Positions 2,702 through 6,890 of a stretch of 32,838 bases of DNA are shown one piece after another. Below the pieces are notes generated by a model. The model was not told the origin of the DNA. It worked only from the letters and a program-made list of their open reading frames with translations, and did not search any database. This stretch comes from Chloroflexota bacterium (GTDB lineage Bacteria; Chloroflexota; Dehalococcoidia; SM23-28-2; RBG-16-64-32), in assembly GCA_022564695.1 (NCBI GenBank), contig JADFKX010000004.1:1-32838 (forward strand). The letters run 5' to 3'. Each line of letters opens with the position of its first letter. Position 1 is the stretch's first letter. The position numbers and the translations under genes were made by a program.

Positions 2702-2731
2702 TTGACAGTGCTGGCGGGCGGCCATTAGAAT
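2702..2731 (+). promoter_or_regulatory. Candidate sigma70 promoter for the greA-like gene (TTGACA - 18 nt - TAGAAT)
   Basis: TTGACA at 2702-2707, TAGAAT at 2726-2731; ATG 13 nt downstream of the -10. Confidence 0.45.
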
Positions 2732-2743
2732 CAAAACCCCACC

Positions 2744-3532
2744 ATGCCTACGGTTTCCATTCTGGACGCAGCGACGCAGTACGTTTCGTCGCTGGCGAAA
2801 AGCACTAGCGCCTCGGCTCAGGCGGAGGTAAACCGGTTCGTACGCTGGTACGGCGCGAGCCGCCTCACCGACGAGCTTCGGGGTCACGAAATCTCGCTGT
2901 ACAGCGAGGAGCTGGGTGTGGCCACGGCGGAGGCGAAGCGGCGCGCAGACCAGGTGCGAGGATTTCTCTCCTATCTCAAGAAGGAGGAGATGACGCAGAC
3001 CAATCTGGCGCCTCACTTGCGGCTGAAGAAGAGTGCTAAGGGCTCTGCCTCCCGCTCCGTAAAGCAGCGGGTCGTTGAGGTCACGGCTGAGGGGCACGAG
3101 GCGCTGAAGAGTGAGTTGGAGGCGCTGAAGTCGCAACGGCCTCAGGTGCGGGAGGATATCCGGCTGGCGATGATGGACAAGGATTTCCGCGAGAACGCCC
3201 CTCTGGATGCGGCCAAGGATAAGCAGGCTCATCTGGAGTCGCGCATCCGGGAGATAGATGGCACGCTGAAGCATGCCGTGATAGTTAAGAAGGTGGATGG
3301 CCCCGGCTCACGAGTGCAAGTGGGGAGCACAGTAGAGATGACGAACCTGAACTCCGGCGCTTCGCTGCGCTACACGATTGTGGGGTTGAACGAAGGGAAT
3401 GCCGCCCAGGGTAAGATCACCAACGTATCCCCCATCGGCAAGGCGTTGCTGAAGCGGAGAGAGGGCGAGGAAGTGAAGGTGAATATCCCTGCCGGCGTGC
3501 TGCGGCTGCGGATCGAGAAGATCGAGGGCTAG
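2744..3532 (+). CDS. greA: GreA/GreB-family transcript cleavage factor with N-terminal recombinase-like (SAM-like/core-binding) domain
   Basis: C-terminal half has Gre coiled coil with tip DFRENAPLDAAKDKQ and Gre C-terminal domain (VQVGSTVEMTNLNSGASLRYTIVG...NVSPIGKALLKRREGEEVKVNIPAG); N-terminal ~95 aa resemble a tyrosine-recombinase core-binding domain. Confidence 0.85.
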   Translation: MPTVSILDAATQYVSSLAKSTSASAQAEVNRFVRWYGASRLTDELRGHEISLYSEELGVATAEAKRRADQVRGFLSYLKKEEMTQTNLAPHLRLKKSAKGSASRSVKQRVVEVTAEGHEALKSELEALKSQRPQVREDIRLAMMDKDFRENAPLDAAKDKQAHLESRIREIDGTLKHAVIVKKVDGPGSRVQVGSTVEMTNLNSGASLRYTIVGLNEGNAAQGKITNVSPIGKALLKRREGEEVKVNIPAGVLRLRIEKIEG

Positions 3533-6263: not shown

Positions 6264-6890
6264 CTAGCTCGGTCGCAGGATCTTCGGCAGCATCTCCTCA
6301 GGTCCCGAAGGCACTGTGAAGTAGTCGTTGATCTCAATCTGGTCCACACCGACGGTATATCGCCAGGTGCGGATGCCAACGACGGCCACCTTGATGTCTC
6401 GGCAGAGCTTCCGCGCGAGGTCACCCTCACCAACAGGAACGTAGAGGTAGAGAGGCGCCAGCTCGGCGAAGGGGAGCCAGCGTCGTAGCGCCGCCTCCTC
6501 GCTGACCGTCTCCGCGGTCTCCACCTCGCCGATGATCTTGGCGTAGTTCTCGGGGTTCTGGACGACGACGACGTCCGGATAGGCGACGGCGTCATCAGGC
6601 ATCGCGACGCCCATTGAGCGCTGAGGGATGTTGGAGTAGGTCTTGTAATCCCGGTAGCGGTCAGTGGGGAAGCCGAAGCGGGCCTCGGCGATGTCTTTTA
6701 CGGCTCTGACGTGGGCGGCCGCTCGTGATTCGGACAGGGTGGCGATGCGCGGCTCGTAGGGCCGGGGCTGGCCGGGCGGGCGCACGCGGCCGAGAAGCAG
6801 GAACTGGGGCAGCACAGCCCTCACGCCGGCAGCGAAGCGGGCGACAGGGTCCGCTTTGGGTTCCTCCACGTCGTCAGCTTGTTGGGTCAC
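6264..6890 (-). CDS. Hypothetical protein with possible PD-(D/E)xK-like nuclease fold
   Basis: AYPDVVVVQNPENYAKIIGEVETAETVSEEAALRRWLPFAELAPLYLYVPVGE resembles the core of the restriction-endonuclease-like fold (PD...ExE). Confidence 0.55.
   Translation of the reverse strand: MTQQADDVEEPKADPVARFAAGVRAVLPQFLLLGRVRPPGQPRPYEPRIATLSESRAAAHVRAVKDIAEARFGFPTDRYRDYKTYSNIPQRSMGVAMPDDAVAYPDVVVVQNPENYAKIIGEVETAETVSEEAALRRWLPFAELAPLYLYVPVGEGDLARKLCRDIKVAVVGIRTWRYTVGVDQIEINDYFTVPSGPEEMLPKILRPS

Follow-up and report, generated by a model that had tools for sequence, protein, structure and literature searches.

Gre factors are usually viewed as small, uniform proteins that touch RNA polymerase (RNAP) alone. 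An open reading frame in a 32,838-nucleotide stretch of DNA from a Chloroflexota bacterium (hereafter the window) raises the question of whether such a factor can carry a domain taken from a tyrosine recombinase, and what that domain would do there. The frame (2744..3532, + strand) opens with an ATG and encodes 262 amino acids, a translation identical to that quoted in the initial annotation, which had read the protein as a Gre factor behind a recombinase-like N-terminal domain and had proposed that it rescues backtracked RNAP at particular loci or while tethered to DNA.

A core-binding domain in front of a complete Gre factor

Residues 113–261 form a complete Gre protein, with both a coiled coil and a Gre C-terminal domain. 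The N-terminal coiled coil (3080..3283, + strand, residues 113–180) matches PF03449 at 5.3e-18 and, by Foldseek, GreA, Gfh1, and GreB, while the FKBP-like, RNAP-binding C-terminal domain (3308..3526, + strand, residues 189–261) matches PF01272 at 1.1e-21, both above the Pfam cut-offs, and the full-length model also matches GreA/GreB/Gfh1 in Foldseek. At the acidic tip, DFREN (3182..3196, + strand), D147 and E150 align with D41 and E44 of E. coli GreA, which are held to be necessary for cleavage (PMC7527559). The DFREN tip is invariant in 51 fusions, and the D/E pair is intact in 85 of 85. These Pfam matches and aligned residues uphold the earlier reading of an intact Gre module with an acidic tip. 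The fusion matches E. coli GreA (PDB 1grj) at 1.1e-18 in phmmer and shares with GreA/GreB (TIGR01462, PF03449 plus PF01272) the full coiled coil, the D/E tip, and the C-terminal domain, but it differs in having about 108 additional N-terminal residues, made up of a CB domain and a linker, and in scoring under the NCBIfam GreA cut-offs.

The additional residues comprise a tyrosine-recombinase core-binding (CB, SAM-like) domain (2756..3031, + strand, residues 5–96), followed by a flexible linker (3032..3067, + strand, residues 97–108) that is variable in the alignment and falls below a pLDDT of 50 at residues 100–105. AlphaFold2 folds the extension alone as a four-helix domain (pLDDT 84) with helices at residues 6–16, 19–36, 47–57, and 62–80, after which comes a basic tail, RLKK (3020..3031, + strand, residues 93–96), conserved across 52 sequences. 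As a single sequence the extension gives weak matches to XerD (0.0018), XerC, and Phage_int_SAM_4 that lie under curated cut-offs; all its single-sequence Pfam matches stay under the gathering cut-offs, and those to DPC2 and DUF6415, weak and supported by few members, were taken as chance. A profile built from 52 extension sequences, however, matches the integrase N-terminal domain 3nrw in the PDB at 2.2e-4. The same structure is the top Foldseek match (probability 1.00, TM 0.77), and among the best 21 matches, 20 carry the label of a tyrosine recombinase, an integrase, or the N-terminal domain of one, the remaining one being an NMR fragment that bears no label (2kob); the E-values, for a domain of this size, are modest (0.045, and 1.1e-3 in the full model). 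Alignment by hhalign to the CB domains of XerD from the same class reaches 96.4% probability over 99 columns, compared with at most 0.8% for one reversed and ten shuffled controls. When the host genome was searched with the extension profile (E up to 10), the sole other match fell inside its own XerD gene, and in other genomes several of the further weak matches coincide with XerC/D genes. Chance likeness between helical domains is ruled out by the reversed and shuffled controls and by these whole-genome searches, where the other matches that recur are Xer-type genes. In our view, the homology of the extension to Xer core-binding domains is settled, and the N-terminal assignment made in the initial annotation, including its expectation of a SAM-like fold, is confirmed by sequence profiles, by structure prediction (AlphaFold2, Foldseek), and by whole-genome search.

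The likeness to the CB domain of XerC/XerD and phage integrases (3nrw, 1a0p; PF13495, PF02899) extends over the four-helix fold and a co-linear profile alignment of the whole domain, and includes a basic residue conserved within the last long helix and a basic stretch behind it. The fusion differs from these proteins in several respects. It has no C-terminal catalytic R-H-R-Y domain, Gre domains following instead in the Pfam analysis, just as the initial annotation had stated. Its loop between helices 1 and 2 is shorter, its second helix lacks the S-x-N-T-x-x-A-Y motif with which that helix opens in Xer CB domains, and helix 3 only partly retains its alcoholic residue.

The long start is well anchored. 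A sigma-70-type promoter, TTGACA-N18-TAGAAT (2702..2731, + strand), ends 12 nt before the start codon (1 observed against 0.2 expected in shuffles), and all 22 relatives checked from the same order preserve this short distance, with the -10 hexamer 8–13 nt from the start. Such spacing implies a nearly leaderless transcript that begins with the extension, which in turn fixes the long start of the fusion; no in-frame start codon was found at the Gre boundary of the window gene. The extension is conserved in an alignment of 57 relatives, with dN/dS of 0.27–0.47 within the window's genus and 0.016–0.049 among closed genomes from a single small-genome genus within the class, and in both comparisons the dN/dS of the Gre part is similar or higher. 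Together, the dN/dS values and the conserved promoter rule out a start-site artefact, and the extension is, as judged from sequence, genuine coding sequence that is translated and under purifying selection.

Distribution and a probable division of labour with the normal-length paralog

Of 346 near-complete genomes from the class, which is very probably Dehalococcoidia, 325 match the extension profile, so the extension is widely retained among homologues. The weakest best match among the 325 is about 7e-8, compared with 9e-7 for the strongest Xer-only match seen, and given this gap few if any of the 325 are Xer genes. A phylum-wide draw places the full fusion in almost every class member and in several further Chloroflexota families. 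Trees of the Gre part group the fusions together, with an SH-aLRT support of 89 (79 rows) and, in a second tree, of 96 for the whole group, for which one fusion event is the simplest reading; from these sequences, CB-Gre looks like the product of a single ancient fusion. The six most Xer-like forms (L180–L184 and L195, in families f67, f90, and f101) take different positions in the two trees. These fusions lie outside the class, carry a more Xer-like CB domain with NPxxxxRxxxR/PR after the last helix, and possibly stand close to the ancestral form. Searches of phage, plasmid, and viral contigs returned no fusion, with matches there spanning the Gre part alone, which rules out cargo of mobile elements. 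The CB domain is gone from two clade members, L232 (G379) and L233 (G587), both of which keep the catalytic tip; they amount to a natural deletion experiment, and show that the CB domain is not indispensable.

Some genomes with the fusion encode a Gre protein of normal length as well, and the acidic tip distinguishes the two forms. In 23 of 23 sampled class genomes with both, the normal-length Gre has lost the D/E pair, D41 being replaced in all and E44 in all (by aspartate in two). The host genome follows this pattern, its normal-length Gre (L001, 1498–2151, - strand, contig C135) lacking both acids, with the tip DSKEMVGAQNAPEY. The normal-length Gre of five fusion-bearing genomes outside the class instead has D,D at the D41/E44 positions, and in Chloroflexota genomes without the fusion E44 is present in 28 of 28 and an acid at D41 in 27 of 28, all these tip counts being drawn from phylogenetically non-independent genomes. 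Because the D/E pair is lost in the coexisting short Gre and kept in the fusions, we infer that the fusion carries cleavage. It appears to be the sole catalytically intact Gre across nearly the whole class, where it has probably taken over transcript cleavage, leaving the normal-length paralog as a probable non-cleaving secondary-channel protein. In this respect the paralog (L001) is comparable to secondary-channel factors of the Gfh1/Rv3788 type, which do not cleave (PMC4598747), although Gfh1 keeps the acidic tip residues that the paralog lacks; the fusion itself, with its GreA-like tip, is not Gfh1-like.

Elsewhere, in many small genomes, the fusion has no Gre companion. Among 17 closed or near-complete genomes of 0.9–2.3 Mb, picked for a single Gre match, it is the sole protein with a Gre C-terminal domain in 15, and the other two have an extra match to this domain inside open frames of more than 1300 aa. 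The frames that contain Gre C-terminal-domain matches in L258 (G124, about 1600 aa) and L259 (G299, about 1300 aa) resemble the TPR-GreA/B-C conflict proteins (PMC8195603).

What the core-binding domain may contribute

We favour, at a probability of roughly 0.55, a reading in which the fusion is the working Gre factor of its lineage and the Xer-type CB domain at its N-terminus serves as a general, mostly non-specific contact to duplex DNA. Here, the Gre part, with its intact anatomy, would enter the RNAP secondary channel and, as its E. coli counterpart does, induce backtracked complexes to cleave their RNA, while the CB domain would stay outside the channel on the flexible linker of about 12 residues. 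The AlphaFold2 model of the whole protein has a pLDDT of 90.5 and a pTM of 0.55, the latter too low to place the CB and Gre parts relative to each other. Through its basic helices and the R-x-K-K tail, the CB domain would grip duplex DNA, mostly without sequence preference, and this grip may keep the factor longer, or at a higher local concentration, on elongation complexes, serving housekeeping in general and not chosen loci. Across 52 sequences, R72 and R93 are always K/R, while R31, R67, K95, and K96 are kept at 83–90% (K95 is K/R in 83% and K96 in 90%), and the mean net charge is +5 for the fusion CB domain, while the Xer domains found in this class average +2. Accessory DNA contacts have been described for CB-derived domains, and the reuse of CB domains as DNA-binding modules is on record (PMC3537659); it is this, together with the well-kept basic positions, that favours a general duplex-DNA contact. 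Weighing against it are the two clade members that do without the CB domain, the missing helix-2 motif, the partly kept alcoholic residue of helix 3, and the low pTM.

A bolder version holds that a DNA-tethered Gre carries out transcript cleavage throughout the class, its CB domain holding the DNA of the elongation complex while its coiled coil operates inside the secondary channel, and that ordinary GreA has been reduced to the part of a non-cleaving channel protein; we advance it tentatively, its chances falling a little short of even. A class-wide recombinase-derived module, alongside the loss of the acids from the standard copy, would mean that evolution can rebuild and replace a core elongation factor, and the fusion offers a natural system for asking if holding DNA alters backtrack rescue.

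The strongest competitor to a general DNA contact is that the CB fold has been kept as a protein-interaction or regulatory module from which DNA binding is gone; it would bind another factor or RNAP itself, close to the rim helices, jaw, or lobe, or would gate the entry of the coiled coil into the secondary channel. Core factors often acquire lineage-specific RNAP contacts. The most conserved residues of the domain are largely core or aromatic (F32, W35, G37, Y53, F74, L88), and helix 2 has lost the DNA-contact motif with which it begins in Xer domains, which are points in favour of such a module; the invariantly basic surface positions, the retained basic tail, and the raised charge argue against it, and we consider it unlikely, at about half the weight given to the DNA contact.

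Much less probable is the locus-targeted rescue put forward in the initial annotation, in which the CB domain would recognise specific DNA (dif-like sites, for example) and deliver Gre activity there. The CB domains of Xer recombinases do contribute to sequence-specific site binding, but the helix-2 motif is divergent in the fusion, and the gene is a vertically inherited, near-universal chromosomal one with a housekeeping-type promoter. Its class-wide presence, its frequent status as the sole Gre of a genome, and its absence from mobile elements all speak against targeting, and this part of the annotation is not supported, while plain tethering to DNA, its other suggestion, stays plausible.

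Least probable of all is that the extension is idle in the mature protein, either as a degenerate passenger or because some lineages bypass it through an internal start giving a normal-length GreA: two clade members without the extension, and an acetylated lysine in a Dehalococcoides GreA whose numbering implies that a short start was annotated, fit this idea, but strong purifying selection over an extension conserved in hundreds of genomes, a promoter positioned to serve the long start in the window's order, and the missing start codon at the Gre boundary of the window gene weigh heavily against it. The lysine in question is acetyl-K17 of D. mccartyi CBDB1 GreA, reported in a proteome paper (PMC7918482). 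It fits a count that begins at an internal Met where the Gre part opens (MTASGYKKLEDELSTLK in L087), while counting from the long start puts N or S at position 17 in the three genomes of matching type, so acetyl-K17 was rejected as proof that the extension is expressed. Since the internal numbering fits, the extension may be missing from the D. mccartyi annotation; the GreA of organohalide-respiring Dehalococcoides may thus be annotated from an internal start that hides a CB module, a guess made from the numbering.

Precedents and genomic neighbourhood

Reuse of a recombinase CB domain outside recombination has a precedent in the ALOG domain of plants (Iyer and Aravind 2012, PMC3537659), whose origin came to light through a profile match to 3nrw like the one above. 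Unlike the fusion, ALOG is eukaryotic, contains a zinc ribbon insert, is predicted to be a sequence-specific transcription factor, and is not attached to an RNAP-binding factor. Gre parts also stand behind large additional N-terminal regions in NF004969 (718 aa) and NF011309 (906 aa), and behind an extra N-terminal region in the TPR-GreA/B-C-PIN conflict proteins (PMC8195603), but the partner domains there are others and a CB domain is not reported. We found no description of a CB-Gre fusion in the openly available literature searched.

In the window, an ECF sigma factor overlapping its downstream gene, which is unassigned (1291–2680, + strand), lies upstream of the fusion, as in about eight related loci within the order; the fusion has its own promoter, apart from this pair. 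Citrate synthase lies downstream in loose synteny, and looseness of synteny led us to reject an operon-based function. In several other orders, rsmG (16S rRNA methyltransferase) is divergent from the fusion at about 0.7–1 kb (L045, L054, L061, L062, L064, L069, L070, L072), perhaps the ancestral neighbourhood. A 208-aa protein with no Pfam match (window 6264–6890, - strand) has similar ORFs near the fusion in a few relatives. Finally, two further loci (L234 in G223 and L235 in G386) encode a Gre coiled-coil hairpin with an intact DGDLKEN tip and no Gre C-terminal domain, in which Pfam sees GreA_GreB_N only and a short Cys-containing N-terminal segment (CPGC...WC) precedes the hairpin.
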